DNA of 64,000 nt, from contig NC_017770.1 in NCBI RefSeq assembly GCF_000242635.2, forward strand, positions 2,678,669-2,742,668, written 5' to 3'. The notes under the pieces were generated by a model, which had not been told where the DNA came from, searched no databases, and saw only the letters and a list, made by a program, of their open reading frames with translations. Each line of letters opens with the position of its first letter. Position 1 is the first letter of the stretch. Origin of the DNA: Solitalea canadensis DSM 3403. Lineage in GTDB: Bacteria; Bacteroidota; Bacteroidia; Sphingobacteriales; Sphingobacteriaceae. Of the stretch, positions 1,532-27,212 are shown in pieces. The translations under genes were made by a program, and so were the position numbers.

Positions 1532-1561
1532 ACATAATTATTTAGCAGTATTAGCAAACAG

Positions 1562-1594: not shown

Positions 1595-1604
1595 AATATC
1601 TAGA

Positions 1605-2054: not shown

Positions 2055-2092
2055 TTTATTCTTAGTTAAGTAAGTTAAAAGTGCAAATTAAC

Positions 2093-2123
2093 CAAATGTA
2101 ACCCAAAATTGAAAAAATACCAA
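2093..2123 (-). promoter_or_regulatory. Bacteroidota-type promoter for the rrf2 gene
   Basis: On the minus strand TTG (2121-2123) is followed by 20 bases and TACATTTG (2093-2100), matching the Bacteroidota -33/-7 consensus TTG-N19/20-TAnnTTTG. Transcription would begin near 2087, giving a leader of about 33 bases before the ATG at 2054. Confidence 0.6.
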
Positions 2124-2258
2124 ACCTATTAATTTAGTAGCCTGTTTTTAAATGATTTAATGAAATGAACTATTTTAAGGTGGAGTTAACCTTTCGGGTT
2201 GCTTGGGAAGGATAGGATTGAAAGGGATTTTCTATTCTGAGGATTTTCTATAGTACTT

Positions 2259-2294
2259 ATAGGTATGAACTGGTGTTAATCAGTTCATACCTAT
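2259..2294 (-). terminator. Hairpin at the end of the sulfite-reductase/siroheme operon
   Basis: A perfect 14-bp inverted repeat ATAGGTATGAACTG / CAGTTCATACCTAT with an 8-base loop lies 17 bases past the stop of the TSUP fusion gene. No T-run follows on the minus strand, so it may terminate weakly or stabilise the 3' end of the mRNA. Confidence 0.5.
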
Positions 2295-2310
2295 TAAGCC
2301 TGTAATTTCA

Positions 2311-3870: not shown

Positions 3871-4649
3871 TTTTCTTTCTTAAGTGACGCTAGTTGTTCA
3901 AATAAATATGAATTGCGACCCAACCGAACCACCTCGCCTATAACGATAATGGCCGGATTAGCCAGATTCTGATCTTTTGCCATATCAACCATTGTTTCAA
4001 CAGTTGCGTAACCTGCCTTCTCTTCCGGAAGTGACCCATTCTGAATAATAGCAACAGGTGTTTCACTTTTGCCATTCACCAAAAAAGCATGCGCAATTTC
4101 CGCCAATTTATTCATTCCCATCAGAATAATAACCGTGGCTGAAGATTGAGCAGCATGGTGAATATCTTTAGAAAGTTCGCCGGATGCAGTTGTTCCGGTA
4201 ACTACCCAAAAACTTTCATTGGTTCCTCGGGCAGTAACTGGTATCTTTTGTAATTCAGGAACTGAATAAAAAGAAGAAATACCAGGAACAACAGCTGTTT
4301 CAACACCGAATGCTTCAGCATAATCGATTTCTTCGTATCCACGTCCAAAAATAAACGGATCCCCACCTTTTAAGCGAACAACATGACCTTTTTGTAGCGC
4401 TTTTTTAACAATTAGCTGATTTATTTCTTCTTGCTTCATTGAATGCTTACCAGCACGTTTTCCTACAGAGATCAATTCAGCTTGTTTTGAAGCATATTTT
4501 AATAACTCTTCATTCGCTAAAGCGTCAAACAACACTACATCAGCATCAGCCAAAGCTTTTAACCCCTTGATGGTTAACAGATCCGGATCACCAGGACCTG
4601 CACCTACCAAGGTAAGTTTAGGTTGTATATGTTTATTGTTAATCTGCAT
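3867..4649 (-). CDS. cobA: Uroporphyrinogen-III C-methyltransferase
   Basis: This 260-residue SAM-dependent enzyme converts uroporphyrinogen III to precorrin-2, the first step toward siroheme. It has the full SUMT motif set in order: LVGAGPGDPDLLTIKG near the N-terminus, VVLFDALA, SVGKRAGKHSMKQEEIN, VVRLKGGDPFIFGRGYEE and AVVPGISS. Length is normal for a stand-alone CobA/SumT. It sits between sulfite reductase (27 bases upstream) and the precorrin-2 dehydrogenase fusion (4-base overlap), so the three form one operon that builds sulfite reductase with its cofactor. Confidence 0.95.
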   Translation of the reverse strand: MQINNKHIQPKLTLVGAGPGDPDLLTIKGLKALADADVVLFDALANEELLKYASKQAELISVGKRAGKHSMKQEEINQLIVKKALQKGHVVRLKGGDPFIFGRGYEEIDYAEAFGVETAVVPGISSFYSVPELQKIPVTARGTNESFWVVTGTTASGELSKDIHHAAQSSATVIILMGMNKLAEIAHAFLVNGKSETPVAIIQNGSLPEEKAGYATVETMVDMAKDQNLANPAIIVIGEVVRLGRNSYLFEQLASLKKEN

Positions 4650-4676
4650 TTTATTGTCCTTTAAAACGTAGAACCA

Positions 4677-6776
4677 TTAAGCTAAAGCAGCTTCTCTGTA
4701 AGTTTTAATCAATTGAGTAAAACCACGAGCCTGATCCAAATAATAGGCTGCAAAATCTGCCGTAGGTTCATCTTTATTGATTTGGTAAACCAATTCCTCA
4801 AACGAAACAGGCAATTTTACTTTTTCACTCTGAACAAAATTCAAATCAAAGTCCTTGATAATTCCACTTTGAGTATTTGTTTTGATGCCTTCTGAAGTCA
4901 AAATAGCCTTAGCCGTGTTAATGAATGAAGTATATGCATAGTAAATACTATCTGCATACTCTGCTTTTTCAAAAGCCTCCTGCGCATTGGCTGTTTTTTC
5001 CTCCGACTCAAGCAGCAATGTAGCTACTAAGTCAATCGTAACACCCGCACATTCACCGACACCTATTGCCTGAACATAAGGAGCTGTTTGTCCCCAGTCG
5101 ATAAAATCATCATCAGTGATCTTATCCATATCCGTCAGCGGATTTAACAAATCATAGAAATAAATTTTACCCTGACGCTGATAATAGCTAAGGAAATACT
5201 CACCTTCGTTTCTATTCTCCTGATAATCATTCAACAGCAATCTCAATACATCCGGACCACGTTTGCTAGGCACTTTAATCACTTTATCTGCAACAGCACC
5301 TGCTCCGTCACCTAAAACACCGCCACCGATAAGTACCTGTAATGCAGGTAAAACCAGTTTATCTTTTTTCATGCTAGAACCGTGGAAACCAATAGCTGCC
5401 ATCGCATGTTGTCCACATGAATTGATACAGCCAGAAATTTTAATGGAAATATCATTACCGTAGATAAACTCCGGATATTCATCATAAATCACTTTTTCCA
5501 ACTCACGGGTAATATCTGTGGAGTTAGAAATTCCCAAGTTACAGGTATCTGTACCAGGGCAAGAAGTAATATCAGCTGTACTTTCAAAGCCGATTTCGGC
5601 TAAACCGATTTCATTCAGTTTTTGAAACAAATAAGGAAGATGAACAGCAGGTACATACTTCAAAAGTATCCCCTGTGTATTCGTCAATCTTATTTCATCG
5701 GCTGTTAATTCGTTAATTATTTGAATAAGCTGACGTGCGACAGGAGTTTTGATATCTCCATTCGCAATTTTCAACCCTACAGAAAAATAGCCTGTCTGTT
5801 TTTGCTGAAACACATTGGTAGTTAACCATTTGTCATACTTCTGCCAATCAGAAAGCTCAAAATCAGGCAATTCAATAATTGCGGGAGGTTGAAGTTCTGA
5901 GGTTACAGTACCATCGATTTCATACACTTTATATTTTAAAGCAAGACGCTCTTCTTCAACTAATTTTAAAAACCCGTCTAAACCTACATCTTGTAGCAAA
6001 TATTTCATCCTTGCTTTATGACGTTTAGTACGTTCGCCATAACGATCAAAAACACGTAATACCGCTTCAGAAAAAGGAATAATCTGATTAATAGGCAAAA
6101 ATTCAAATGCTACTTCAGCTAAATAAGGTTGCGAACCCAATCCTCCTGCAAGCATCACTTTAAAACCTCTTTCCTCTTTACCATTTACCACTCTTATTTT
6201 AGGAATGAAACCCAAATCGTGCATAAAAGTGTAAGCAGTATCTGATTCAGAAGATGAAAAGGCAATTTTTACCTTTCTGCCCATCTCCTGGCACACAGGA
6301 TTGCGTAAGAAATATTCAAATGCAGCCTGTGCATATGGAGAAACATCGAACAATTCTTTAGGATCAATTCCTGCCGTTGCAGAAGCTGTAACATTACGTA
6401 CGGTATTACCACATGCTTCACGCAAAGTAATATCATCCCGTTCTAGCTCAGCCCATAATTCGGGTGTACGATCCAGGCTCACATAGTGGATCTGTATATC
6501 CTGACGTGTAGTAATGTGCAGATTACCACGAGAATATTCATCCGAAACCTGACAAATGCGCTCCAATTGTTGCGTAGTAACCTTACCATACGGTAATTTA
6601 ATACGCACCATTTGCACACCTTGTTGACGCTGGCCGTATATGCCGCGTGCAAGTCGCAGACTACGAAACTTTTCCTCGTCAATTTTCCCGTCGCGATATA
6701 ATCGGATCTTACGTTCCAATTCAATTATATCACGCTCTACGACTGGGTTCTCAAGTTCTGTCCTGAAGCTTTGCAT
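4677..6776 (-). CDS. Siroheme [4Fe-4S] sulfite (nitrite/sulfite) reductase with helical C-terminal extension
   Basis: The 699-residue enzyme likely reduces sulfite to sulfide in the cytoplasm. It shows the duplicated NIR/SIR ferredoxin-like halves (KLPYGKVTTQQLERICQVSD and RGNLHITTRQDIQIHYV) and the cluster/siroheme cysteines in SCPGTDTCNLG and SGCINSCGQH. The catalytic body ends near residue 550. A C-terminal stretch of about 140 residues follows and is predicted mostly helical (ECAGVTIDLVATLLLESEEK onward); similar tails in Bacteroidota are, as I recall, annotated HEPN-like. The context (cobA, siroheme enzyme, cysDNH) favours sulfite over nitrite as substrate. It is the first gene of its operon. 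No flavoprotein subunit is visible, so ferredoxin is the probable electron donor. Confidence 0.9.
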   Translation of the reverse strand: MQSFRTELENPVVERDIIELERKIRLYRDGKIDEEKFRSLRLARGIYGQRQQGVQMVRIKLPYGKVTTQQLERICQVSDEYSRGNLHITTRQDIQIHYVSLDRTPELWAELERDDITLREACGNTVRNVTASATAGIDPKELFDVSPYAQAAFEYFLRNPVCQEMGRKVKIAFSSSESDTAYTFMHDLGFIPKIRVVNGKEERGFKVMLAGGLGSQPYLAEVAFEFLPINQIIPFSEAVLRVFDRYGERTKRHKARMKYLLQDVGLDGFLKLVEEERLALKYKVYEIDGTVTSELQPPAIIELPDFELSDWQKYDKWLTTNVFQQKQTGYFSVGLKIANGDIKTPVARQLIQIINELTADEIRLTNTQGILLKYVPAVHLPYLFQKLNEIGLAEIGFESTADITSCPGTDTCNLGISNSTDITRELEKVIYDEYPEFIYGNDISIKISGCINSCGQHAMAAIGFHGSSMKKDKLVLPALQVLIGGGVLGDGAGAVADKVIKVPSKRGPDVLRLLLNDYQENRNEGEYFLSYYQRQGKIYFYDLLNPLTDMDKITDDDFIDWGQTAPYVQAIGVGECAGVTIDLVATLLLESEEKTANAQEAFEKAEYADSIYYAYTSFINTAKAILTSEGIKTNTQSGIIKDFDLNFVQSEKVKLPVSFEELVYQINKDEPTADFAAYYLDQARGFTQLIKTYREAALA

Positions 6777-6816
6777 ATTGTATTTATATAGTCTATGGAT
6801 TTACTGGATTATTATG

Positions 6817-6846
6817 CAATTATAAGACCTTTATTTTAAGAATCAA
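6817..6846 (-). promoter_or_regulatory. Candidate promoter of the sulfite reductase operon
   Basis: On the minus strand TTG (6844-6846), a 19-base spacer and TATAATTG (6817-6824) match the Bacteroidota promoter with one mismatch in the -7 box. This would give a leader of roughly 35 bases. The rest of the gene-free stretch 6777-7059 shows nothing I can name. Confidence 0.4.
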
Positions 6847-7059
6847 AACAAAATGTAGCAATGTTACAGTAAAATGATGTAAAAAATATCAATTTATCAA
6901 ATAACAATCATATTTATTGCCATTTAAGCAACAAATGAGTATTATTCTTCTTTTAATTAGTAATATCAATAAAAAGAAATTTTCAGAAAATTTTGTAGCA
7001 AAAAGAGTTCAGCAGTAAAAAATACTGTGCATTTAGGAAGGAAAGATGTGAGAATATTT

Positions 7060-7203
7060 TTATAGCGTCAGTAGATTAACCACTACAATTGTTAGAATTC
7101 CGCCTAATAAAAGGAGATGACGTTCATCAAATGTAAACTTAAATTCTATTACAATCTCTTCGCCTTTTTTAAAAGCCTCAACAGCTTCTTTAATCTTTTT
7201 CAT
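7060..7203 (-). CDS. Small predicted single-span membrane protein (47 aa)
   Basis: A short open frame starts at the ATG at 7203 and stops at 7060. It encodes a basic/acidic N-terminus (MKKIKEAVEAFKKGEEIV), the stretch IEFKFTFDERH, and a C-terminal hydrophobic segment of about 18 residues (LLLLGGILTIVVVNLLTL) that could be a single membrane anchor. AAAGGAGG lies directly before the ATG, closer than an ideal ribosome-binding site. It stands alone between the TonB receptor terminator and the sulfite reductase promoter. The amphipathic-then-hydrophobic layout supports a real small protein, but no family was recognised. Confidence 0.4.
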   Translation of the reverse strand: MKKIKEAVEAFKKGEEIVIEFKFTFDERHLLLLGGILTIVVVNLLTL

Positions 7204-7298
7204 ACCTCCTTTTACGATGGTGAAAAGGAAAAGTTGTCATTTTATTGTAACATAAACAACTGTAATACAATACAGTGTAAAATCCATTGAGTGAAAGA

Positions 7299-7332
7299 AG
7301 GCGTAATGGAAATCTCTTTCTTCATTACGCCT
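7299..7332 (-). terminator. Hairpin terminator of the TonB-dependent receptor gene
   Basis: AGGCGTAATG (7299-7308) pairs perfectly with CATTACGCCT (7323-7332) over a 14-base loop, followed on the minus strand by TCTTTC. It lies about 90 bases after the receptor stop; the intervening 7384-7413 is a short AGCTA/TAGCT word hairpin. Confidence 0.55.
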
Positions 7333-7422
7333 ATTATCAACCAATCGTAATTAATTACGCTCTAAGTAATTAAGAACATCTTTTAGTTAGCTAACTGCTA
7401 ATAGCTATCAGCTATATTTTTT

Positions 7423-10350
7423 TTATTTATTCAGTAGTCCATCAAACGTTATCGCAACATAATACACTCCACCCAAAGTAGGTCCTCCGGCATATTGAAT
7501 ATAGTTTCTGTTGAACAAGTTAGTTCCCCCAACTTTCACACTGGCTTTTGCCTGAGGAATTGCCAATGATACCTGTGCATCGAATGTATGAATAGCATCA
7601 ACAGTTCCGGTTACAAGCGGACTTTCCCACAAGAATGATTGTTGCCATTTATAGATAATACTAAAACCCACATTTTTAACCACTTCCCTATTACCAAATG
7701 AAACATTTCCAGACCATTCAGGCGTATTAAAGCCGGTTACAAAAATGTCTGAAGTTTCATTAGCCTTCATTTTATTGAAGCTTACATTACCGCCAACAGT
7801 GTAGCGTTTGTAGAAGTTGTAGGTAATTCCAAGCGCAGAACCATAGTTGCGGTAGGTATTTTTAGCATTGGTATAAACACGGTAACGATCTTGTCCCTTG
7901 CTTGCTGCGTTCCCTCCTGTTCCCGGATTTGGATCGCGATTACGGTCAACCATCGCAATTACAGCAGCATCAGAACCAACAGTTTCTCCTTTTGGAACGT
8001 AAACCTGTACTTGCCCTAAAAAGCCAGTGTAATCATTGGTATAAGCATCCACATCAACAACCAGTTTATTATTGAACAAGATGCTTTTATAACCAACTTC
8101 AAATGAATTGATACGCTCAGGGCCCGCATCAGGAAGGTTTGCCACCTTTAATAAATCTCTGTTAGCTAATGCAGCAGCATCCGTATTGCCAGCAGCTTTA
8201 ACGGCTGCGTTAAAATTAACAACTGAAGCTTGTGTATAGCTGTTATCCAGGTATCCAAGTCCTTCGTTAATGTACGGAAGACTACCAACACGTTTTACAC
8301 GACCGTTATTTACATAAGAAAGTGCCTCAAACAATGCAGGGAAACGATAACCTTGCTGGAAGGTTACACGGAAATTATGTTTTTCAGAAAGCGTATAAAC
8401 CGCTGCAATACGAGGAGTTAATTTTGGATCGAATTCAGGATTATAATCCATACGAACAGAACCAAATAATTTCAGTTTTTCCTGAAAGAAAGTCTTGGTA
8501 ACCTGTGCGAAACCACCAAACTTCTTGTAAGAAACATCATTACCAAAGGTTCCGTCAGCTAATGGCTTATTACGATCTTCAATTGGTCTTGAAAAATCCA
8601 CAAAATTGTTTCCATCTGGAATAATGTCATAAATACGGGCATCAGCACCAATCAACAAATCAAAATATTTAACTTGTTTTGAAAGATCCCATTGGCCTTC
8701 AACATTATACAAACGGCTTTTTTGAACCAAAGCAGCACCACCTGTTTCCGGAGCATCCGGAATAGTTGCAGATTTAATGTCCCAGTTATTGATACCAATG
8801 ATAGTGTTTTTCAAATCCTGAAAGGCTTGTGTTCCAGGTTGCACACGACTTGCATCTGCTGCCTGCCGAGCGAATTGTGTAGCAGCCGCAAGATTTTCTG
8901 AGGTAAGTGCACCACCATGATCAATACCATAAGTGTTTAAAGCCGTTTTAAATTTCGCGGCCCATGCTGTACCGCTACCTCCACTATACAAATCCATATT
9001 ATCAGCTAATGGCTTCACATTAAATGAATCTCCGGTATCTTCTAACGACATATAACCACGGATCAGGAAATTACTTCCTTTTAATTCTACTTTATGATTC
9101 TGAACAATCACATTATCTAATTGAATTTTATTTCCGCGCTGAAAAACTCCGTCCATCTTTCCAAAACGATAAGAATATGAGGCTTCCAGATTATCTGTAA
9201 TACGATAATGTAATGCTGCGTCAAATTTTAAGTTATCAACGTTAGGGCTTACCAAGTCTTTTTCCCAGTAACCAGTGCGGGCAACAGTAAGTGTTTGATT
9301 AGGTTTACCATCAATAGTTAATCCTGTTAATGACACTGTATTACTTCCAGCCAAAGCATCATCTCCATACTTATTCCAGCCATCAAATACAGCATTATTA
9401 GCACCATCAAGAGCAGGATAAGCGGGATTGGCCGTTTTTAAGTTATTAGGATTTTGATCAAGGCGAGTATCTGAAAGCCAATCCGTGCCTTTCATGTAGC
9501 TAAAGTTCACTTTAAACGCCCATTTATTATTAAACGCTTTAGCATAACGAAGAGCAGTTTCCGTAAGATTGCTTACATCCCTTCCTGTTCCCTCAATATG
9601 ATTGATACCATTTCTACTATAAACACTTAATCCCTGGTAAACAAACGGACTTTTAGTCAATAGGTTAGACATACCATTAATGGCATTCATGCCGTATAAT
9701 GCAGAAGCTGCACCGGGAGTGATTTCAACGCTTGCAATATCTAACTCTGTTGGACCGATAGCATTACCAAGCGGAACACCTAATGTAGCTGCTTGCATAT
9801 CAACACCGTCCACCAGTTGCATAAAGCGAAAGTTATTAGGAATGTTAAATCCGCGTGTATTGGGCACTTTGAATGTTAAGCTAGAAGTGGTCATTTGTAC
9901 TCCTTTAACGTTTTCTAAGGCATCGTAAAAAGTAGGAGCCGGAGATTGTTTGATCGCTCTTATATCCAGTTTTTCAATTGCCACAGGCGATTTTAAAATA
10001 CTTTCTTCTACTCTGGAAGCAGTAACCACCACCTCATTTGCCTGTATATTAATGCTTGAAAGGTTTAAAGCGATGGATTGATTAATATCCTTCACCTCAA
10101 ACTCCTGGCTCTGAAAACCCACTAAAAACACTTGCAACACAAAAGGAAGTTTCTGACGTGTTTTTAATTCAAATCGTCCGTCGTTATTAGTTGACGTACC
10201 TGAATTGGTTCCCTTTACCCTTACTGATACACCACTTAATGCTTCGTGGGAATCTTTATCTTTAATGGTACCACTTATCAATATTGCATCTTGTGCTAGT
10301 AACCTCAACGAAAAGGTCAAAAGGATAGCTATTAGTAATGATTTTTTCAT
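7423..10350 (-). CDS. TonB-dependent outer-membrane receptor with carboxypeptidase-regulatory-like N-domain
   Basis: The 975-residue protein has a signal peptide (MKKSLLIAILLTFSLRLLAQ), a CarboxypepD_reg-like beta-sandwich (ILISGTIKDKDSHEALSGVS, about residues 22-105), a plug domain beginning near VVVTASRVEES, and a long beta-barrel ending GGVYYVAITFDGLLNK. It is not a SusC (no paired SusD). It would import a scarce ligand across the outer membrane using TonB energy. Its place inside a sulfur-assimilation cluster, and a leader peptide ending in three cysteine codons, suggest a sulfur-containing ligand. That is inference; the sequence does not show the substrate. Confidence 0.88.
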   Translation of the reverse strand: MKKSLLIAILLTFSLRLLAQDAILISGTIKDKDSHEALSGVSVRVKGTNSGTSTNNDGRFELKTRQKLPFVLQVFLVGFQSQEFEVKDINQSIALNLSSINIQANEVVVTASRVEESILKSPVAIEKLDIRAIKQSPAPTFYDALENVKGVQMTTSSLTFKVPNTRGFNIPNNFRFMQLVDGVDMQAATLGVPLGNAIGPTELDIASVEITPGAASALYGMNAINGMSNLLTKSPFVYQGLSVYSRNGINHIEGTGRDVSNLTETALRYAKAFNNKWAFKVNFSYMKGTDWLSDTRLDQNPNNLKTANPAYPALDGANNAVFDGWNKYGDDALAGSNTVSLTGLTIDGKPNQTLTVARTGYWEKDLVSPNVDNLKFDAALHYRITDNLEASYSYRFGKMDGVFQRGNKIQLDNVIVQNHKVELKGSNFLIRGYMSLEDTGDSFNVKPLADNMDLYSGGSGTAWAAKFKTALNTYGIDHGGALTSENLAAATQFARQAADASRVQPGTQAFQDLKNTIIGINNWDIKSATIPDAPETGGAALVQKSRLYNVEGQWDLSKQVKYFDLLIGADARIYDIIPDGNNFVDFSRPIEDRNKPLADGTFGNDVSYKKFGGFAQVTKTFFQEKLKLFGSVRMDYNPEFDPKLTPRIAAVYTLSEKHNFRVTFQQGYRFPALFEALSYVNNGRVKRVGSLPYINEGLGYLDNSYTQASVVNFNAAVKAAGNTDAAALANRDLLKVANLPDAGPERINSFEVGYKSILFNNKLVVDVDAYTNDYTGFLGQVQVYVPKGETVGSDAAVIAMVDRNRDPNPGTGGNAASKGQDRYRVYTNAKNTYRNYGSALGITYNFYKRYTVGGNVSFNKMKANETSDIFVTGFNTPEWSGNVSFGNREVVKNVGFSIIYKWQQSFLWESPLVTGTVDAIHTFDAQVSLAIPQAKASVKVGGTNLFNRNYIQYAGGPTLGGVYYVAITFDGLLNK

Positions 10351-10393
10351 TCTATTAAGTATTAGTTGGTTGAATAATAAATAGTTGTAATTA

Positions 10394-10416
10394 GTAATAC
10401 CTGAAATAGGTATTAC
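10394..10416 (-). promoter_or_regulatory. Leader hairpin between the Cys-rich leader peptide and the receptor gene
   Basis: A perfect 9-bp stem GTAATACCT / AGGTATTAC with a 5-base loop lies 15 bases after the leader peptide stop and 43 bases before the receptor ATG. No T-run follows, so it could act on translation, on mRNA stability or as one arm of an attenuator; its role is inferred from position only. Confidence 0.45.
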
Positions 10417-10431
10417 CTTTTATCGCTTGTT

Positions 10432-10479
10432 TTAGCAACAACAATCATAGAGCTGTAGTGCTGTCGATTTGCTTTTCAT
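10432..10479 (-). CDS. 15-residue leader peptide ending Cys-Cys-Cys upstream of the TonB receptor
   Basis: An ATG at 10479 opens MKSKSTALQLYDCCC followed by TAA at 10432. It lies inside the 5' leader of the TonB-dependent receptor, downstream of a TATATTTG promoter box and upstream of a stable hairpin. Three consecutive Cys codons (TGT TGT TGC) directly before the stop are the expected design of a ribosome-mediated cysteine sensor: low Cys-tRNA stalls the ribosome on the run. Polycysteine upstream ORFs with this logic are known in mycobacteria. Translation here has not been shown. Confidence 0.5.
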   Translation of the reverse strand: MKSKSTALQLYDCCC

Positions 10480-10549
10480 TTGTATTCTATTAGGTTGATT
10501 TGGAAGAAAGATTGAGCGTAGCTTTCTTCTTAATTAAAAGTTAACAAGA

Positions 10550-10557
10550 CAAATATA
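10550..10557 (-). promoter_or_regulatory. -7 box (TATATTTG) of the TonB receptor transcript
   Basis: TATATTTG on the minus strand matches TAnnTTTG; no TTG is seen at the -33 position, so an activator may be needed. It would give a leader of about 195 bases, which includes a GAAGAAAG/CTTTCTTC hairpin, the Cys leader peptide and the 10394-10416 hairpin. This accounts for the gene-free stretch 10351-10655. Confidence 0.45.
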
Positions 10558-10596
10558 TATAAATCCTACAGATTAAGTAGATTATTTTAAAAAAAA

Positions 10597-10624
10597 TTTA
10601 GGGTATTTAATAAAACACCCTAAA
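10597..10624 (-). terminator. Rho-independent terminator of the DUF4349 gene
   Basis: On the minus strand TTTAGGGT pairs with ACCCTAAA (10617-10624 with 10597-10604) and is followed by eight T residues (10589-10596), 32 bases beyond the stop of the DUF4349 gene. Confidence 0.75.
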
Positions 10625-10655
10625 AAACGCTTTTTTAGCCTTTATGGCGATTATT

Positions 10656-11531
10656 TTATTTATTATTTAAGAGGTTCATTACTTTAAGTTTATCGGCAAT
10701 TAAAAGTAAAACGAATATTGTAAGGGAAAGTACGAGTGAAATAAATACAATAATTGCAAAGTATTTAATTGTCCACTCTAATGACACTTTCACTCTGTGA
10801 AACAGGCCGATTTTCTTTTCAGTTGCTCCTTCATAGAGTGAGAGTTTGACTGTACAAAATTCATTTTCAGAATCAAAATTACCTAACTCAACCCCAAGTT
10901 CCTGAAGCTTCTCTTCTGTTTCTAATATCTTATCATTCAACGCTATAAAATCAGTTATTTCTCCCCCTCTGGATTTCAGCTCATTTAATGATTGTAACGT
11001 TTTCTCAATTGAAACTTTCTTTGCATTTAGTTGCCTGTACTCGTTTGTTTTATCGACTTTGGTAATTTCCTTTGTCTTAACAAGTCCAATTTTCTGAATA
11101 TCAACATAAAAACTATCAAATTTTGCTGGATTAACTCCAATGACTAAATGAAGTTGCCTGTTCCCCTGCTGCCCCACATTCTGTTCGTATTGAATAACAG
11201 CACTGTACGATTTGGTTTTGCCTTTAATTAGTTTATCATCTTTTTCAAATTCAGAAGATTTTGTTTTTATAGAGGCCGTTTTTTCAAACTTTTGATTGGT
11301 CGATAAAGATGGAACTGCCTGATAATTAGCCCCTTTAATTAAAATCTTTTCTGAAGCATAGTTCTTTCTAAGGTTTTCAATGCTGCTAAAAAAATCTTCA
11401 CTGTAATTATTGTTATAATTAACAGATCCCCCTGCAACATATCCATAAATCAACCTAAAAATAAAAAGGAGAATAAAAACAGCTCCAAACCATTTACTTA
11501 TTCTCCAAAATTGCGTTTTAAAATTGGGCAT
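10656..11531 (-). CDS. DUF4349 domain membrane protein
   Basis: The 291-residue protein has an N-terminal membrane segment (about 15-30), an extracytoplasmic middle part and a C-terminal membrane helix (AIIVFISLVLSLTIFVLLLI, about 258-280). The middle ends in a predicted coiled coil (KKVSIEKTLQSLNELKSRGG through LNDKILETEEKLQELGVEL) and the strand NEFCTVKLSLYEG, the usual C-terminal pattern of DUF4349. The family has no established biochemical role. Between metZ and the receptor gene it may simply be a passenger in the sulfur cluster. Its start lies 65 bases after the metZ stop, so co-transcription is possible. Confidence 0.75.
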   Translation of the reverse strand: MPNFKTQFWRISKWFGAVFILLFIFRLIYGYVAGGSVNYNNNYSEDFFSSIENLRKNYASEKILIKGANYQAVPSLSTNQKFEKTASIKTKSSEFEKDDKLIKGKTKSYSAVIQYEQNVGQQGNRQLHLVIGVNPAKFDSFYVDIQKIGLVKTKEITKVDKTNEYRQLNAKKVSIEKTLQSLNELKSRGGEITDFIALNDKILETEEKLQELGVELGNFDSENEFCTVKLSLYEGATEKKIGLFHRVKVSLEWTIKYFAIIVFISLVLSLTIFVLLLIADKLKVMNLLNNK

Positions 11532-11596
11532 AATGTTTTAATGCTTTAAATATTAACTATCAAACATAACAATTACTTATTATGTATAAAAGTTAT

Positions 11597-12769
11597 TTAA
11601 AGCTTCGAAACTTCTAATGCTTGTTTAATATCTTTCAGAATATCGTCGATATGCTCTAAACCAATAGACACCCTAACAGTTCCCTGATTGATGCCAACCT
11701 GTTGACGTTCAGCTTCGGTTAACTTTGAATGCGTACTTGATGCCGGATGCGTTGCAATTGAGCGCGTATCTCCTAAGTTTGCTGAGATAGAAAACATTTT
11801 TAATGCATCCATAAACTTACTTGCGCGATCATAACCTCCTTTAACCACAAAGGTTACAATGCCCCCTCCCGCTCTCATTTGTTTTTTAGCAATTTCATAT
11901 TGAGGGTGAGATTTTAATAATGGATATTTAACCAACTCAATCTCCGGGTTAGCTTCCAAAAACTCGGCTACCTTAAGTGCATTATCACAGTGGCGGTCCA
12001 TGCGGACAGCTAATGTTTCAAGGCTTTTCGAAAGCATCCATGCATTGAACGGCGACATAGCCGGACCTGAATGGCGGGCGAATCCCTCTATTTCAGCAAT
12101 CAATTTTTGACTTCCCAGTATTAAACCGCCTAAGGTGCGACCCTGACCGTCGATATATTTTGTAGCAGAGTGAATAGAAAGATCTGCTCCATATTTGATA
12201 GGTTGTTGCAGATAAGGTGTTGCAAAACAATTATCTACCACTAAAATAGCATTGTGTTTTTTCGCAAATTTACCCAACCATTCCAAGTCGATAATATCGA
12301 TTCCCGGATTAGAGGGTGTCTCCACAAAAATCATTTTCGTAGTTGGCTGAATAAGGTTTTCCCATTCTTCCGGTTTATCCAAATCAGCATAGGTTGATGT
12401 TACCCCCCATTTAGGAAATACATTTACCAATAACTGATGAGTTGAACCAAACACCGAACGGCTCGACAAAACATGGTCGCCGGACTTTAAGAAAGCAGCG
12501 AAAGTGGTGAAAATAGCTGCCATACCTGTTGAAGTTGCCCATCCTGTTTCAGAACCTTCCAAAATGGCCATTTTTTCAATCAATTCAGAAGTATTTGGAT
12601 TTGAATAACGACTGTAGATATTTCCTTCCCGTTCATTTGCAAAAAGCGCGCGCATATCTTCCGCGTCATCAAATTTATAGCTTGAAGTTAGGTAGATAGG
12701 TGCTGAATGCTCTTTTGCCCCTGAGCGTTCTGTTTGAATACGAATAGCGTTGGTTTCGAAATTTGACAT
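11597..12769 (-). CDS. metZ: O-succinylhomoserine sulfhydrylase (Cys/Met PLP-dependent enzyme)
   Basis: The 390-residue enzyme belongs to the Cys/Met-metabolism PLP family. Visible motifs are EGNIYSRYSNPNTSELIEKM, WATSTGMAAIFTTFAAF (cofactor phosphate region), FVETPSNPGIDIID and SIHSATKYIDGQGRTLGG, where the Lys of SATKY is the PLP Schiff-base residue. It would join sulfide from the neighbouring sulfite reductase to activated homoserine to give homocysteine, the direct-sulfhydrylation route. MetZ is preferred over MetB/MetC from overall resemblance and context, but family members are hard to separate by motifs alone. Expression is very likely controlled by the SAM-I riboswitch upstream. No clear Shine-Dalgarno precedes the ATG at 12769. 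Confidence 0.85.
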   Translation of the reverse strand: MSNFETNAIRIQTERSGAKEHSAPIYLTSSYKFDDAEDMRALFANEREGNIYSRYSNPNTSELIEKMAILEGSETGWATSTGMAAIFTTFAAFLKSGDHVLSSRSVFGSTHQLLVNVFPKWGVTSTYADLDKPEEWENLIQPTTKMIFVETPSNPGIDIIDLEWLGKFAKKHNAILVVDNCFATPYLQQPIKYGADLSIHSATKYIDGQGRTLGGLILGSQKLIAEIEGFARHSGPAMSPFNAWMLSKSLETLAVRMDRHCDNALKVAEFLEANPEIELVKYPLLKSHPQYEIAKKQMRAGGGIVTFVVKGGYDRASKFMDALKMFSISANLGDTRSIATHPASSTHSKLTEAERQQVGINQGTVRVSIGLEHIDDILKDIKQALEVSKL

Positions 12770-20365: not shown

Positions 20366-20427
20366 TCTAAAAAGTTCATTGCTATATTAGAATATGAACT
20401 ATTAACTTTCCTATGAACTCTGAAAAA

Positions 20428-20916
20428 ATGAACATAAGCATCATAGTAGCGCAGGCTGAAAATAACGTTATCGGCAAGAGCAATCAATTAATTTGGCATT
20501 TACCTGCTGACTTAAAGCATTTTAAAAAATTAACAACAGGTAACACCATTATTATGGGGCGTAAAACCTATGATTCAATAGGCCGACCATTGCCTAACCG
20601 CAGGAATGTTATTATCAGTCGAAATAAAGATTTAAAGATCGAAGGTTGTGATCTGGTTAATTCACTGGAAGAAGCTCTGGAGCTAACAAGAAATGATGAA
20701 AAGGTTTTTATTATCGGTGGTGCACAGATCTATAATCAGGCGATGAACATTGCAGATACACTCTTTATCACTGAAGTAAAACAAGTATTTGAAGGAGATG
20801 CTTTCTTTCCGGACATTGCAAGCGATAAATGGATCGAAATTGCACGTGAAGATCATAAAGCTGACGAAAAAAATAGGCTCGATTATTCATTCGTTACTTA
20901 TAAACGCAGGAATTAA
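20428..20916 (+). CDS. folA: Dihydrofolate reductase
   Basis: This enzyme of about 162 residues regenerates tetrahydrofolate after thymidylate synthesis. Visible motifs are NISIIVAQAENNVIGKSNQL, the substrate-loop IWHLPADLKHFKKLTTGNT, the NADPH-binding IIMGRKTYDSIGRPLPNRRN and VFIIGGAQIYNQAM. The ATG at 20428 is preferred because family N-termini start immediately before the ISIIVA strand; an in-frame ATG at 20413 lies in a CTATGAACT word repeat. The 3' end overlaps by 4 bases with the convergent chagasin-like gene. Confidence 0.93.
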   Translation: MNISIIVAQAENNVIGKSNQLIWHLPADLKHFKKLTTGNTIIMGRKTYDSIGRPLPNRRNVIISRNKDLKIEGCDLVNSLEEALELTRNDEKVFIIGGAQIYNQAMNIADTLFITEVKQVFEGDAFFPDIASDKWIEIAREDHKADEKNRLDYSFVTYKRRN

Positions 20917-21359
20917 TCAGTAACCTTTATTTCAAAATCCTTTGTATCAATCGGTGGTGAGGTTTTTTCCCAAGGGCGTCGCTGCTCAAAGTGAATTTTA
21001 GTTGTCCCTACTTTAGTGCCAATTACTTTAAACACTTCGGGGATGGATGATCCCACCGCGGGTTGAGGAGTGCCTTTAAAAAGATCTTCTGCATAATCTA
21101 CCCTTTCAATCGTAACAATACCCTCATTCTCTGTTTTGTATTCCCATAAAAGCCCCGATGTACCCTTTCCCGGAAGGGAAATAAAGAGGCTATCATTTAT
21201 TTTTAAGTCTTTGGATTCCATATTTTTTTCTTGCTGAAGTGATTTGCAGCCATAAAGGGAAGCAATCAAGAAGACAATATTCACAAGATAAACCCTATTC
21301 AAATTAGGGTTGAAGATCGTTTTCTTCAACCCCAAATTACGAAATAAATCAGCCTTCAT
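20913..21359 (-). CDS. Chagasin-like (family I42) cysteine-peptidase inhibitor lipoprotein
   Basis: The 148-residue protein has a membrane-targeting N-terminus ending in the lipobox LYGC (Cys38), so it is probably a lipoprotein. The mature part has the three loop motifs of chagasin/ICP inhibitors in the right order: a degenerate first loop ([14 protein letters not shown], for the usual NPTTGYxW), a Gly-containing second loop ([20 protein letters not shown]) and the terminal RRPWE of the RPW loop. Family members block papain-type (C1) peptidases. Its start codon lies inside the end of the upstream C1A-PLL gene (11-base overlap), so the peptidase and inhibitor are likely co-translated. Confidence 0.78.
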
Positions 21360-23013
21360 ACCATTTATGGTAAAGCTGAGAATTGGTACCCATCACAAAA
21401 CAATCGAGTCTGTTTGCAGCCCAAGATGAGACACCCACTCCAGAACTTAATACACCTCCAAGGTCTTCTACTCCACTCCATTGTCCGTTCCACCACTTAT
21501 GCATCATATGGTTATTTTGTCCCGGGAAGAAGACATCAATTCGATTTGGGCCCCAGGAAACAGCTCCCGGATTATCAAATAATTGTGCATTTAAATCTTC
21601 CCAATTAGACCATTGGCCTTCATACCATTTATGGAACAAACTATTATTGGTTCCTCTTGCAAAAATATCCAACCTGCCACTAGCCCAAGAACATACAGTT
21701 GGAGCTGAGGTTAAGACTCCACCCAAACTTTCCCAACCATACCAGGCCCCATCCCACCACTTATGCCAAAGAGCAGAGTCCGTTCCCCTTGCAAAAATAT
21801 CAATACGATTATTTCCCCAACTAACACACGATGGATCAGAAGAAAGCAATCCTCCCAGATCTTCCCATCCACTCCAACCTCCCTGATACCATTTGTGATA
21901 TAAATGATGATTTAAGCCAACTGCAAAAATATCCAACCTGCCGTTAGCCCATGAGCAGATAGACGGAGCACCTTGTATACCTCCTCCTAACGACTCCCAA
22001 CCAAACCAAGCCGTACCATTCCACCAACGATGCCAAACAGCAGAGTCTAATCCTCGAGCAACCACATCAATTCGATTATTATCCCATGAAACGGCATCTG
22101 GCTTTGAAGTTATACCACCTCCAAGGCTTTCCCATCCTTGCCAACCCTTTTGGGCAGGTAAAACAACTCCTTGTGCTCCATAAAACGGATACGTGGTATC
22201 GATACCACATTGACCATAGGCTATTTTGAAGAACCCTGCATTTCCCCAAGCAGTATTCCATGAATTCTTACAGATCCAGCATTGTTCTGCTTCAGAGTAA
22301 CCAATAACTGAAACGCAATGCAAACCAGCCAATCCTCCCGAAACATGATGATAAACACCGTTTGTATAACTAAAAAAGTCTTGATAAACCTCAATAACCG
22401 CCGAGCACGGCCCAATGTTTGTCAGGTGATTTTTACGATCAATTTCACTTACAAGTGCCGTATAACTGGTTATTTTCACTGCGTTAGAAGCCCTGTCGGT
22501 CACATTTGTACAATGCGGCGGACTTTGCCATATATCATTATTAGGAAATGCCGAAGCATACGGGAAGGACACATCATCCACAATGCCTCTTGCTTTAACT
22601 TCGTCCAATGCGTATTGTGGCCACCAACCTCCACAGTTTGCTCCATGATTAGAACAAAAGTGCAAATCGGCCTCTGATAAATTTAATAGTTGACCTTTTT
22701 CAATAGAGGTCATTGATTCTACAACGCTTGTAATACAGAACGATACGCATGAGCCGCAACCACCCTGATCTTTTACGGAGGTCACGTGATTTCCATTTCG
22801 ATTTCGCCAATCTACTGCAGGTGCGAAGCTTGGTGTAGTTGCTTTAGGAGGAACAGCCATAATGGCTTGTAATGCAGCAGGATCAATCTCAACTCCTAAT
22901 AAAGCACGTTGTTGATTTTCAGGAAGCTTCGAAACTTCAGTTTCACTCGCTTGCCATCGCGCTTGCGTTTTAGCCAGGTCAGACACCAACGCTTTGATTT
23001 TTAATTGTGCCAT
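21349..23013 (-). CDS. Papain-family (C1A) cysteine peptidase fused to a PLL-like lectin beta-propeller
   Basis: The 554-residue protein has an N-terminal propeptide-like region (1 to about 60). A C1A catalytic domain follows (about 65-280): the oxyanion Gln and nucleophile Cys in [13 protein letters not shown], His in [12 protein letters not shown] and Asn in [15 protein letters not shown]. From about 288 to the end there are six repeats of about 44 residues, each with the form W-x-x-W-E-x-L-G-G...SW...NR-[IL]-D-[VI]-F-A-x-G-x...HKWW-x-G, the pattern of Photorhabdus PLL-type sugar-binding propellers. No signal peptide is visible. The domain could anchor the peptidase to fucosylated or O-methylated glycans. 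It follows a second C1A gene by 50 bases and overlaps the inhibitor gene. Confidence 0.88.
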
Positions 23014-23063
23014 GATAGATATTTATTAATAGGTTTCAGATGTATAATATAGCCCGGATGTTA

Positions 23064-23972
23064 TCAGGCTTTAAAGTTTCCAGTATTAATCCAGGCATTT
23101 TTCAGAACGACCCACCAATCAACAGCAAGCCCATTCAACACATAATCATAAGGTAACCAACCATATCCCTTATCACCCCAACCCTTACCCCAGGAATTTC
23201 TTATTAATAATGCTCCTTTTGTTTTAGTGGTGCCAGAAGCATCAGGAATTTCAAGCTTATCATCATAGCCAACAGTCATAACGGCATGTCCGCCCACCAT
23301 TGGATCATTAGCTGATGGATAAGGTATAGTTCCATCATTGGTTGAATAAATAGAATTATAAACAGAGAAGCCAAACATACTTGGCAGACCTGAATTCAGG
23401 TGAGATTTTATAGACATTAATAGATCGGTTGTTTTGGTACCGGAAGGATCAAGCCGGTAATAAGTTATTGCTTTATAATTTTGACCAAAAGCATAACAGA
23501 AAGCACTAGGTTCGATATCATAATTACCTATTATGTATGGCCAATATTCTTCTGGTGGAACACCAAACAGCGTCATTGCACCTATTGTTGAACGTAGATA
23601 GGCTCCTGTATCACCATTCCATTTTAGCAGGTTTCGGGTAACCTTATATAAAAATAGTCTGGATGCGTCAATATGTTTTCCAAAAGCCCTTTTTTCAAAA
23701 TATTCAATTATCCCAACTCCTGCATTCGCCGTGCAAGAACCTATTGATTCCTGATTTTCAATTGGAGAGCACCAAGTCCTAAGATCCTTTTTAGTAGGTA
23801 ATGCAGGCTTTGTGGCTGTAGTTACACCAGCCGTTTTCAACATGTTTTTAATCGACTCTGTTTCACCCGCAACATGCAATGAATCAGAAACATTTTTTGT
23901 ATCAGCTGTGTAGTCTTTAAAGCTAGGAAGATCTCTTAACCAACCTAACGCATAAATGTTAGAATTTTCCAT
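23064..23972 (-). CDS. C1-family papain-like cysteine peptidase
   Basis: The 302-residue protein contains the catalytic residues of the C1A fold: Gln/Cys in IENQESIGSCTANAGVG (about residue 84), His in VGGHAVMTVGYDDK and Asn in LIRNSWGKGWGDKGYGW. The N-terminus YALGWLRDLPSFKDYTADT is typical of a bacterial branch of this family. As with its neighbour no signal peptide is seen, so if it acts outside the cell it needs a non-Sec route or lysis. It is the first gene of a three-gene minus-strand unit: C1A, C1A-PLL, chagasin-like inhibitor. Substrate unknown. Confidence 0.85.
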   Translation of the reverse strand: MENSNIYALGWLRDLPSFKDYTADTKNVSDSLHVAGETESIKNMLKTAGVTTATKPALPTKKDLRTWCSPIENQESIGSCTANAGVGIIEYFEKRAFGKHIDASRLFLYKVTRNLLKWNGDTGAYLRSTIGAMTLFGVPPEEYWPYIIGNYDIEPSAFCYAFGQNYKAITYYRLDPSGTKTTDLLMSIKSHLNSGLPSMFGFSVYNSIYSTNDGTIPYPSANDPMVGGHAVMTVGYDDKLEIPDASGTTKTKGALLIRNSWGKGWGDKGYGWLPYDYVLNGLAVDWWVVLKNAWINTGNFKA

Positions 23973-24266: not shown

Positions 24267-27212
24267 ATGCAAGGAAAAGGTGTCATCAGGTTTGTGGCTA
24301 TCGCACTGGCACTTGCTTGTCTATACCACATCTCATTTACGTGGATAGTAAGCAGTGTCGAAAAAAAGGCAAAAGAATATGCCAATGGCAATGCAGCCAA
24401 AGAGAGTTATTATTTGGATTCAATTGCTACCGAACCGGTTTATAACCTGGGTGTGGCAAAATTTACTTACAAAGAGTGTAAAGAAAAACAGTTAAATCTG
24501 GGTCTTGACCTTAAAGGCGGTATGAACGTTACCATGGAAGTATCTGTGGTTGACCTAATCCGTTCAATGTCAGGAAACAGCACTGATCCTGCTTTCAATA
24601 AAGCTATGGATTTAGCTAAAGAAAGATCAACAAGATCGTCTGAAGATTTCGTTTCATTATTCGAGAAAGCTTATAATGAAGTAGCTCCTAACGGTAAATT
24701 AGCTTCCATTTTTGCTACAGCTGAAAATAAAGGCCGTATCAACTATGACACTCCTAATAAAGAAGTTATCAAACTTTTAAAAACAGAGTCTGAAAGCGCT
24801 TTTAATCGTTCATTTGAAATTCTCCGTACCCGTATCGATAAATTCGGTGTTACTCAGCCAAATATTCAGAAAATTGGCGGAAACCGAATTTTAATTGAGT
24901 TACCGGGCGTTGATGATCCTGAGCGTGTGCGTAAACTGTTACAAGGTTCTGCAAAACTTGAGTTTTGGGAAACTTATGATAACCGTGAAGTATATGGAGG
25001 TTTAGAAGCAGCTAACAAAGCATTAGCAACCAAGTTAGCTTTAACTGATAAAGCGGCTCCTGCAACTACTTCAGCAACAACTGATACAACTAAGAAAAAA
25101 TCTGATTTGGCTCTTTTAAACAAGATTAAATCAGACTCTTCTAAAAATGATACTTCTGCAATGCGCGCAATGATGGCTAAACAAAACCCATTATTTGCCG
25201 TAATGATGCCTAGTACTTATCAGGAAGCTAACGGACAACAAATGTTGGCTCCGGGTTCTGTGGTTGGTTATTCAGCATTAAAAGATACTGCAAAAGTTAA
25301 CGAATATCTTTCTTCTCCTGAAGTTAGAGCAAGCTTCCCAGCTAACATCAAATTTGCATGGAGCGTTAAAGCTATTAACGACAAGAATATTTTTGCTTTA
25401 AACGCATTAAGAGCATCCGGTCGTGATGGTAAAGCAGCATTAAGTGGTAACGTTATTTCAACTGCACGTTCAGATATCAGAGATGGTAAACCTGAAGTAG
25501 AGATGGTAATGAATGCTGATGGTGCTAAAGAATGGAGAAGAATTACTGCTGAAGCTGCTGCTGCAAATCACCGTGCAATTGCTATCGTTCTTGATGATGC
25601 TGTTTATTCAGCACCAAGTGTTCAAAACGAAATCTCTGGCGGTGTTTCATCCATCTCTGGTAACTTCAAAGTGGAAGAAACCCAAGACTTAGCTAACATT
25701 TTAAAAGCGGGTAAATTACCTGCTCCTGCTAAGATTGTTGAAGAAGCAACTGTTGGTCCTACTTTAGGTCAAGAGGCTATCAATGCAGGTTTAATTTCTT
25801 GTTTGGCTGGTTTAGCTGTTGTGTTCGTTTTCATGGCGATTTACTACAATAAAGCAGGTATTGCTGCTGACGTTGCTTTAATTGTGAACTTATTCTTCAT
25901 GATTGGTGTATTAGCGTCATTCGGAGCAGTATTAACCTTACCAGGTATTGCAGGTATCGTTCTAAACATCGGTATGGCGGTTGACGCAAACGTACTGATC
26001 TATGAACGTATCAAAGAAGAACTTGATCATGGCAAGAGCTTGCGTATGGCTGTTACTGACGGCTTTAAACACGCTTACTCAGCGATCATCGATGCGAACG
26101 TTACCATCTTGTTATTAGGTATCATTCTTTACGTGTTCTCTTCTGGTTTGATCCAAGGTTTCGCAACTACTCTTGTTATTGGTATTTTCACTTCATTGTT
26201 CTCAGCTATCTTTATCACTCGCTTGATTTTCGAAGCACAGTTAGCTAAAAACAAAGTGATTAAATTTACCAATGAGTTTTCTAAAAACTGGTTTAAAGAC
26301 ACTGATTTCGACTTCGTTTCTAAACGTAAAATATTCTACTTTATCTCGGGTGCTATTATTTTAGCAGGTGCTATTTCAATTGCTACCAAAGGTTTAAGTT
26401 TAGGTGTTGACTTCCAAGGTGGTCGTACTTATACTGTTCGTTTCGAGAAAGATGTTAAAGTTGGTGATGTAAGAGCAGCAATTACTCCTGAATTAGGTGG
26501 TAAAGAGCCTGAAGTAAAAACTTTCGGTGGTGCTAATCAGGTTCGTATCACTACTTCTTACGAAATCGATAATCAGTCAGAAAGCATTGATAAAGAAGTT
26601 GAAACTAAACTTCAAGCAGGATTAGCTAAGATCAAAGATAATAAGGCTGAAATCATGAATACCCGTAAAGTGGGTCCTACAATTGCAAACGATATTAAAA
26701 TATCTGCATTGTATTCAATTGGTTTAGCGTTGGTAATTATCTATATCTACATTATCATTCGTTTCCGCCGCTGGCAGTTTGGTATCGGTGCTACCGTTGC
26801 CCTACTTCACGACGTATTGGTAATTATTGCGATCTATTCGATATTCAATGGTTTATTACCTTTCTCATTGGAAGTTGATCAAACCTTCATTGCAGCAATT
26901 CTGACTATTATGGGTTACTCAATGAACGATACGGTGGTAGTATTTGACCGTGTTCGTGAATACTTAGGTTTACATCATAGCAAAAATGAATCAATGGGCA
27001 CTGTAATCAACAGCGCGTTGAACAGTACTCTTAACCGTACCGTTGTTACAGGTTTATGTACAATGTTAGTATTGGTAATATTATTCATATTTGGTGGTGC
27101 GGTATTGCGTGGTTTCTCCTTCTCTTTGTTGGTTGGTATTGTTGTAGGTACATACTCTTCATTGTTTGTAGCTACGCCAATTGTAGTTGACTTTATCCGC
27201 AAAAAGAACTAA
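24267..27212 (+). CDS. secDF: Fused protein translocase subunit SecDF
   Basis: This 981-residue inner-membrane protein uses the proton gradient to help Sec-exported proteins leave the translocon. The N-terminal SecD half has a first membrane helix (about 7-27), LNLGLDLKGGMNVTMEV, a large periplasmic domain and the conserved GMAVDANVLIYERIKEEL. The SecF half starts near residue 680 with SLGVDFQGGRTYTVRF and contains TIMGYSMNDTVVVFDRVREY. Bacteroidota usually carry this fused form. An insertion rich in Lys/Ser/Thr (AAPATTSATTDTTKKKSDLA) sits in the periplasmic part of SecD. It is monocistronic, with a good promoter and a strong terminator. Confidence 0.96.
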   Translation: MQGKGVIRFVAIALALACLYHISFTWIVSSVEKKAKEYANGNAAKESYYLDSIATEPVYNLGVAKFTYKECKEKQLNLGLDLKGGMNVTMEVSVVDLIRSMSGNSTDPAFNKAMDLAKERSTRSSEDFVSLFEKAYNEVAPNGKLASIFATAENKGRINYDTPNKEVIKLLKTESESAFNRSFEILRTRIDKFGVTQPNIQKIGGNRILIELPGVDDPERVRKLLQGSAKLEFWETYDNREVYGGLEAANKALATKLALTDKAAPATTSATTDTTKKKSDLALLNKIKSDSSKNDTSAMRAMMAKQNPLFAVMMPSTYQEANGQQMLAPGSVVGYSALKDTAKVNEYLSSPEVRASFPANIKFAWSVKAINDKNIFALNALRASGRDGKAALSGNVISTARSDIRDGKPEVEMVMNADGAKEWRRITAEAAAANHRAIAIVLDDAVYSAPSVQNEISGGVSSISGNFKVEETQDLANILKAGKLPAPAKIVEEATVGPTLGQEAINAGLISCLAGLAVVFVFMAIYYNKAGIAADVALIVNLFFMIGVLASFGAVLTLPGIAGIVLNIGMAVDANVLIYERIKEELDHGKSLRMAVTDGFKHAYSAIIDANVTILLLGIILYVFSSGLIQGFATTLVIGIFTSLFSAIFITRLIFEAQLAKNKVIKFTNEFSKNWFKDTDFDFVSKRKIFYFISGAIILAGAISIATKGLSLGVDFQGGRTYTVRFEKDVKVGDVRAAITPELGGKEPEVKTFGGANQVRITTSYEIDNQSESIDKEVETKLQAGLAKIKDNKAEIMNTRKVGPTIANDIKISALYSIGLALVIIYIYIIIRFRRWQFGIGATVALLHDVLVIIAIYSIFNGLLPFSLEVDQTFIAAILTIMGYSMNDTVVVFDRVREYLGLHHSKNESMGTVINSALNSTLNRTVVTGLCTMLVLVILFIFGGAVLRGFSFSLLVGIVVGTYSSLFVATPIVVDFIRKKN

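Follow-up and report, generated by a model that had tools for sequence, protein, structure and literature searches.

Why does a bacterium encode two papain-type peptidases without signal peptides directly ahead of a chagasin-type inhibitor, and which enzymes might that inhibitor restrain? The question is raised by a 64,000-nucleotide stretch of the Solitalea canadensis DSM 3403 genome (contig NC_017770.1, positions 2,678,669 to 2,742,668), here called the window, whose positions are used below. Between folA and secDF it carries three minus-strand open reading frames in the order 23064-23972, 21349-23013, and 20913-21359. These code for a short C1 peptidase, a C1A peptidase fused to a PLL-type lectin propeller (C1A-PLL), and an inhibitor of family I42. 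We lean towards the view that they form a self-guarded protease cassette in which I42 is the cognate inhibitor of the adjoining peptidases. The domains, folds, gene order, and conserved pairing were established by computation. The cassette has the following features, all on the minus strand:

23064-23972, minus: short bacterial C1 peptidase gene, 302 amino acids, no signal peptide seen; Q74, C80, H229, N259 (Pfam; 3ois_A; ortholog beside I42 in the congeneric genomes G001 and G003)
21349-23013, minus: C1A-PLL peptidase gene, 554 amino acids, no signal peptide seen (Pfam; AlphaFold2; hydropathy)
22828-23013, minus: cathepsin-B-type pro-region, residues 1-62 (conserved W20, L39, G40; structural match to whole zymogen from residue 1)
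22192-22818, minus: papain catalytic domain, residues 66-274 (Pfam; catalytic residues)
22765-22767, 22747-22749, 22318-22320, 22264-22266, minus: catalytic codons of Q83, C89, H232, and N250, respectively
21352-22143, minus: six-bladed PLL-type propeller, residues 291-554 (six DUF346; PLL/PHL by sequence and fold; AAL-type six-bladed ring by VIA-align)
20913-21359, minus: I42/chagasin-family inhibitor gene, 148 amino acids from the first ATG; alternative start Met47 at 21219-21221 (Pfam PF09394; PDB profile and fold matches; core under purifying selection)
21307-21333, minus: inverted repeat, predicted hairpin, ahead of the inhibitor leader (sequence)
21246-21299, minus: possible lipoprotein leader ending at Cys38 (hydrophobic stretch, LYGC; sequence; alignable in the sister genome G002, absent in G001 and G003)
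20931-21206, minus: chagasin domain, residues 52-143 (Pfam)

Architecture of the three proteins

Pfam assigns 20913-21359 to Inhibitor_I42 (E 9.3e-17, 61.5 bits against a curated cut-off of 27.2), 21349-23013 to Peptidase_C1 (E 3e-44) with six DUF346 stretches, and 23064-23972 to Peptidase_C1 (E 2.4e-13). The two peptidase genes are separated by 50 nucleotides, and the C1A-PLL gene overlaps the I42 gene by 11 nucleotides. Throughout the genome (5.2 Mb, one contig), I42 has a single match at E 0.001, and both DUF346 matches fall inside the C1A-PLL gene. An earlier interpretation made from the letters of the window (the sequence-only reading) had described two such peptidase genes and an inhibitor gene within 20913-23972, with the inhibitor gene overlapping and downstream, and both statements agree with the open frames and Pfam matches. 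It had also noted C1A catalytic residues in both peptidases and a signal peptide in neither; the Q-C-H-N set is present in each, and no hydrophobic leader is detected by hydropathy.

In the C1A-PLL protein, Q83, C89, H232, and N250 are invariant in all 22 aligned rows, as are W20, L39, and G40 of its short pro-region. The AlphaFold2 model computed from this alignment has a mean predicted local distance difference test (pLDDT) of 92.0. When Foldseek's best 1000 matches were aligned by VIA-align, residues 1-284 superimposed on cathepsin B zymogens (4i04, Z 31.8; 1mir, 31.0; 1pbh, 30.9; best four, Z 30.8-31.8). Foldseek's top peptidase rows are procathepsins B from trypanosomes and schistosomes. 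A profile of the N-terminal pro-region alone matched no cathepsin, just two weak chains (E 0.19 and 0.34), and its classification as a known domain by profile alone was rejected; the link to zymogens therefore rests on structure and the joint profile. These results support a papain-type zymogen in which the pro-region is predicted to lie over the cleft.

The propeller motif recurs at residues 321, 366, 410, 454, 498, and 542 (n = 6). The ring formed by residues 291-554 matches PLL/PHL lectins by sequence and fold, with 31-41% identity in the Foldseek alignments. The six-bladed fucose lectin 1ofz (AAL-type) aligns to it with Z 30.8 and a root-mean-square deviation of 2.0 over 257 residues. PLL lectins are characterized by seven blades, whereas this sequence has six repeats. 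A papain-type peptidase with a lectin propeller of six PLL-like repeats, as deduced previously, is thus what the model depicts, namely a procathepsin-B-like pro-region, a papain core, and a ring whose blade count is six. The fucose site of PHL is formed by T194, W199, and W214 (PMC5584973). By eye, the full T-W-W signature is kept in one of six blades (at residue 410), the blade at 498 keeps none of these residues, and the other four keep some. The C1A-PLL enzyme might attack glycan-bearing competitors, as the sequence-only reading proposed.

The closest solved relative of the short peptidase is 3ois_A (E 1.1e-31), which we take to be xylellain. Short bacterial C1A peptidases of the xylellain type are mentioned in PMC10380794.

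For I42, the AlphaFold2 model (pLDDT 82.9) retrieves chagasin-family inhibitors of cysteine peptidases (ICPs) in all 12 top Foldseek rows, and the closest solved relatives by profile are the Pseudomonas aeruginosa ICP and chagasin. The segments KGTSG (residue 65), VGSSI (102), and QRRPW (126) follow each other in the order of what are presumably the named chagasin loops. The chagasin fold and the loop order, on both of which the sequence-only reading had relied, are therefore recovered. Among the four congeners examined (the window's genome, G001, G002, and G003), the ratio of nonsynonymous to synonymous differences (pN/pS) in the core is 0.15-0.36, with synonymous sites near saturation, which indicates purifying selection.

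The N-terminus of I42 is less uniform. In G001 and G003 the protein begins with METK and has no leader, an in-frame stop being found shortly upstream. In the window and G002 the frame stays open ahead of the equivalent Met, and this extension includes a Cys and a hydrophobic stretch. Between these two, pN/pS is 0.53 for the extension and 0.78 for its hydrophobic part, as compared to 0.29 for the core. Predicted hairpins with unlike stem sequences precede I42 in all four congeners (window, L112, L113, and L022), and translation may here start at Met47 instead. The extension is under weak coding constraint and follows directly on a predicted hairpin; the leader is plausible here. An exported I42 is thus plausible for the window and is not common to the whole genus. 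Of the lipobox described previously, the L-Y-G-C pattern with Cys38 is indeed present, but it lies within a weakly constrained extension that two of the four congeners lack.

Leaders were scored by hydropathy, pattern, and eye; for the I42 N-termini this was done by eye and pattern, not by an automatic rule. By eye, 21 of the 25 aligned I42 proteins have no leader, the four with one being those of the window, G002, L039, and L046. A pattern scan reported a lipobox in 16 of 27 I42 frames, which were read from stop to stop and may include letters ahead of the true start; for I42 genes adjoining C1 genes in other genomes of the phylum, the count is 11 of 16 scanned. In other genomes of the phylum, mostly of family f60, an I42 gene with a lipoprotein-like leader often comes after a leaderless C1 peptidase (L073-L092).

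Pairing of C1 peptidase and I42 genes

Scanning of genome contigs with the C1A-PLL protein resulted in 39 loci. The match runs from residue 1 to at least residue 510 in 16 of them (L034-L049), falls in the C1 part in 10 (and in L051 in the propeller as well), and is limited to the PLL repeats in 13. Downstream sequence is available for 15 of the 16 (L034-L046, L048, L049; the contig of L047 ends at the gene), and in all 15 the gene is adjoined by I42. None of the 13 PLL-only loci has I42, and none has C1. The pairing anticipated by the sequence-only reading is thus conserved in relatives, and neither of the outcomes that this reading had named as refuting, absence of a chagasin fold or of a conserved pairing, was obtained. 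When families present in at least three loci were compared, I42 was the sole family to adjoin the C1A-PLL gene in nearly all loci. Small clusters of neighbor genes mostly consist of close relatives, and clusters 1, 6, and 7 also join distant loci.

The pairing is linked to the absence of a leader on the peptidase. In loci fetched by C1 similarity (set 1), I42 lies beside 24 of 26 leaderless C1 genes but beside none of the 12 with a leader or membrane segment (Fisher 3e-8), or none of 13 upon addition of L033, which has a hydrophobic leader and no I42. Besides L033, set 1 leaves out L047, the window's 23064-23972 gene (I42 being its second neighbor), L022 (broken peptidases), and loci fetched by I42 or SecDF. 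L066 was counted as leaderless despite a rule-flagged inner hydrophobic segment, and L027 as leader-bearing without a neighbor, its I42 being part of the same chain. Set 2 was fetched by C1 family from other genomes of the phylum and consists of 29 loci, one per genome, of the 76 matching genomes among 198; several of these genomes are also among the I42-fetched loci. Here, I42 lies beside 9 of 16 leaderless versus 0 of 13 leader-bearing C1 genes (Fisher 0.001), and within family f60 beside 9 of 12 leaderless ones. If the start codons of L129 and L135 lie behind the hydrophobic segment, as may be the case, the counts become 9 of 18 versus 0 of 11. The association of leaderless C1 peptidases with an I42 neighbor is thus observed in the sets examined, and it is not a universal rule. 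Since close relatives are present in both sets, the Fisher values and the Mantel correlation given below overstate independence.

In the reverse view, other genomes of the phylum provided 29 I42 loci (2 of them under the Pfam cut-off), and 17 of these have a C1 gene within 1.5 kb. Among these C1 genes, 14 have no leader, L099 has one, and L097 and L098 begin outside the stretch. Across 21 pairs, the distances among C1 proteins are correlated with those among I42 proteins (Mantel r 0.705, 0 of 5000 permutations), as they are in a 17-pair subset (r 0.731, 0 of 5000). A natural fusion is encoded by L027 (420-2798, minus strand; 792 amino acids), composed of a leader, I42, C1, PKD, an Ig-like domain, and a type IX secretion tail; the I42 domain occupies the usual place of the pro-region. 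Short peptidases of the same kind as in the window adjoin I42 in L026 and L030. The tails that follow the same C1 core vary among relatives (DUF346, FG-GAP, BTRD1, or none recognized), suggesting that the targeting part is swapped and the core retained together with its guard.

Within the genus, all four congeners carry I42 between folA and secDF. The flanking genes in the window are as follows, the names folA, thyA, and secDF having been assigned from translations:

20413-20916, plus: folA
24267-27212, plus: secDF

The C1A-PLL gene is missing from G001 and G003, where I42 is accompanied by the short peptidase (84% identical). In G002, I42 is intact, the short peptidase is reduced to its first 22 residues, and C1A-PLL remnants contain stops and lack the catalytic part. 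We thus consider the short peptidase and I42 probably the older pair in the genus; the C1A-PLL gene was either inserted between them or lost in G001 and G003. The G002 locus (L022 9219-10551), with both peptidase genes broken and the inhibitor gene intact, looks like a guard kept after loss of the enzyme. C1 peptidases with lipoprotein-like leaders, in tandem in G002, occur elsewhere in G001 and G002 without an adjoining I42 (L024 9669-10541; L025 8416-10736).

Persistence of I42 in G002 is what one would expect if I42 were directed against C1 peptidases of foreign origin, made by predators or hosts, and adjoined C1 genes only because of a shared regulon. Chagasin-family proteins of parasites act on foreign cathepsins. 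Such an activity is also described for a bacterium (PMC5014320). The neighbor is indicated as the target by the close juxtaposition of the two genes in several phyla, by the correlated distances, and by the fusion of I42 to C1 in one protein, and we consider a foreign target very improbable.

From these data we infer inhibition, release, a glycan target, and an ecological role for the self-guarded cassette in the following way. Both peptidases would be made without a signal peptide, the C1A-PLL enzyme as a zymogen with its cleft covered by the pro-region. The chagasin-type protein encoded straight after it would be the cognate inhibitor and would stop stray or early-activated enzyme from cutting the producer. 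This would follow the staphostatin principle, by which an inhibitor made together with the protease, as proposed for staphostatins and staphopains, would block early or stray activity in the producer (PMC3462683); the link of leaderless C1 peptidases with I42 fits this principle, as leaderless enzymes are made and kept in the cytosol. The enzymes may act after leaving the cell, by lysis or a non-classical route, similar to leaderless PLL lectins: PLL2 and PLL3 were detected in an extracellular fraction even though PLLs have no recognized signal peptide (PMC12203525). Outside, the propeller would tether the C1A-PLL enzyme to other cells or to the matrix by way of fucosylated or O-methylated glycans.

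The peptidase-plus-immunity cassette proposed by the sequence-only reading thereby stands with respect to the chagasin fold, the zymogen with its propeller, and the conserved pairing. Its notion that the inhibitor generally guards the envelope is not supported, given the prevalence of leaderless I42 proteins in the aligned set and the METK start of the G001 and G003 proteins. With a lipobox pattern in 11 of the 16 scanned C1-adjoining I42 genes of other genomes of the phylum, an envelope role is possible without being universal, and where I42 is a lipoprotein, as perhaps here, it may have a second role there.

Several observations weigh against the self-guarded cassette. All nine I42-positive loci of set 2 belong to f60, and outside this family none of 4 leaderless C1 genes has I42 (none of 6 if L129 and L135 are reassigned); this clustering slightly lowered our confidence. 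Of the 29 I42 loci fetched elsewhere in the phylum, 12 have no C1 gene within 1.5 kb. A leader-bearing C1 gene has an I42 neighbor in L099 (1474-3149, minus strand), and L028 and L029 are short leaderless C1 genes without one. I42 directly follows the short peptidase in G001 and G003, with no C1A-PLL gene, so either enzyme may be the one mainly guarded. The intact I42 of G002 may have another target or may lag behind the decay of both peptidases. Finally, a lipoprotein leader on I42 in the window would split inhibitor and leaderless enzyme between compartments.

Mobility, delivery, and site of action

A search for phage carriage gave no match in 50,697 phage records. The C1A-PLL protein matched 35 of 72,556 plasmid records, none over 80% of its length. 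A tblastn search for I42 in plasmid records gave no match; it misses distant I42 proteins, as is evident from two annotated I42 genes near plasmid C1 matches. Three of the 35 records were examined (Deinococcus, Streptomyces, and Nocardia). Plasmid pDAETH-2 of Deinococcus aetherius (L146 2938-6789) encodes C1, a hypothetical protein, a "protease inhibitor I42 family protein", and a caspase-family gene, and C1 and I42 are annotated together on the Streptomyces plasmid. On the plasmid from Nocardia sp. (L148 3010-4551), a PLL-like stretch and a papain-like C70 domain are found between mobC and mobF, with no I42 annotated nearby.

Identity across phyla is 61-70% and presence is patchy, with a match in 9 of 150 genomes including that of the window; some carriers are metagenome bins. 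Inter-phylum transfer as read from a tree was not relied on, since Bacteroidota and Pseudomonadota need two changes each, 7 of 19 inner branches are open, and branches are long. With the tree ambiguous, the argument for transfer leans only on cross-phylum identity and patchiness.

The caspase-family gene on pDAETH-2 would suit a regulated proteolysis inside the cell (turnover, stress, or a death response), with I42 as on/off control and the propeller binding an internal partner. Exported proteins are the usual carriers of binding tails of the PLL, FG-GAP, and BTRD1 type, which argues against this, as do the full set of fucose-site residues in one blade, the patchy presence, and the lack of a PADLOC match in the search for anti-phage defence. 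Signal peptides are absent from both peptidases and leaders from most aligned I42 proteins, and prokaryotic C1A proteins are noted to have a signal peptide if extracellular and none if intracellular (PMC10380794). On balance, we consider it quite improbable that the enzymes work inside the cell.

Markers of injection systems were searched for in 17 genomes, of which 5 have TssC and 9 a contractile sheath. An intact cassette is present in 16 of the genomes searched (that of the window and those of 15 loci, with the genomes of L037, L042, L047, L051, L063, and L066 left out), and 4 of these match neither TssC nor sheath; two of the four are metagenome bins and may be incomplete. Contractile injection as a common delivery route was rejected on these grounds. 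In the window's genome a sheath match lies some 155 kb away from the cassette; G002 has none. By eye, contractile-tail-like genes surround this Phage_sheath_1 match (L114, about 435-11657).

A weapon proper, with enzymes delivered to or released on neighbors by contractile injection or lysis and a lipoprotein I42 shielding the envelope of self and kin, would account for the sheath match here, its absence from G002 with its broken peptidases and intact I42, and the differing C-terminal binding domains after the same core (DUF346, FG-GAP, BTRD1). It would equally account for the leaders on I42 in the window, G002, L039, and L046 and the lipobox pattern in C1-adjoining I42 genes. As most aligned I42 proteins are leaderless, the leader here is weakly constrained, the sheath match is distant, and no injector is common to the carriers tested, we regard this as unlikely. 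A related and equally tentative idea, to which we give little weight, is that of a horizontally spread module. The leaderless cathepsin-like core with exchangeable glycan-binding tails would be a released or injected weapon and chagasin its immunity protein. A lipoprotein leader would turn the cytosolic guard into envelope immunity against kin, kept when the weapon is lost, as in G002.

Comparison with known systems

The targets of bacterial chagasins are, to our knowledge, so far unclear. I42 beside leaderless C1 peptidases offers a testable answer, namely that many bacterial chagasins may protect their producers from papain-type enzymes of their own. In the C1A-PLL protein, a cathepsin and a lectin are naturally combined, and the fusion of I42 to C1 lends itself to testing. 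The literature searched, which mostly excludes subscription journals, showed no description of paired C1 and I42 genes in prokaryotes, and the term "chagasin" does not occur in the accessible part of PMC10380794.

The individual components have well-known counterparts. Cathepsin B zymogens share pro-region and papain core, whereas the C1A-PLL protein is bacterial, has no signal peptide, and has gained a propeller. The 3ois peptidase is the best solved relative of the short peptidase, which in this genus is paired with I42. The ICPs of Trypanosoma, Entamoeba, and Pseudomonas aeruginosa have the same fold and segment order as I42; unlike these, I42 is co-encoded here with C1 peptidases, and its loops (KGTSG, VGSSI) have diverged. 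The Photorhabdus PLL/PHL lectins (DUF346) resemble the ring at the identity level given above, with aromatic inter-blade sites, and have no recognized signal peptide (PMC12203525), but they have seven repeats, whereas the ring has six and is fused to a peptidase.

As to the arrangement, Tox-PL1 toxins with Imm35 likewise combine a papain-fold enzyme with a proposed peptidase inhibitor as immunity protein; they belong to a different papain-like clade, with the toxin at the end of large polymorphic toxins, and chagasin is not mentioned in the accessible part of the source (PMC3482391). Closer are staphopain/staphostatin, SpeB/Spi, and the Bacteroides C10 proteases with Bfi/Bti, in which, as here, a papain-fold protease is co-encoded with a small dedicated inhibitor. 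These inhibitors are thought to be cytosolic in Staphylococcus and Streptococcus and are predicted to be exported or lipoproteins in Bacteroides. The proteases are of family C47 or C10, those of Bacteroides with a leader, and the inhibitors are not chagasins (PMC3462683). The locus is thus a variant of the known pair of protease and cognate inhibitor, new in that a leaderless C1A enzyme is combined with an inhibitor of the I42 fold.

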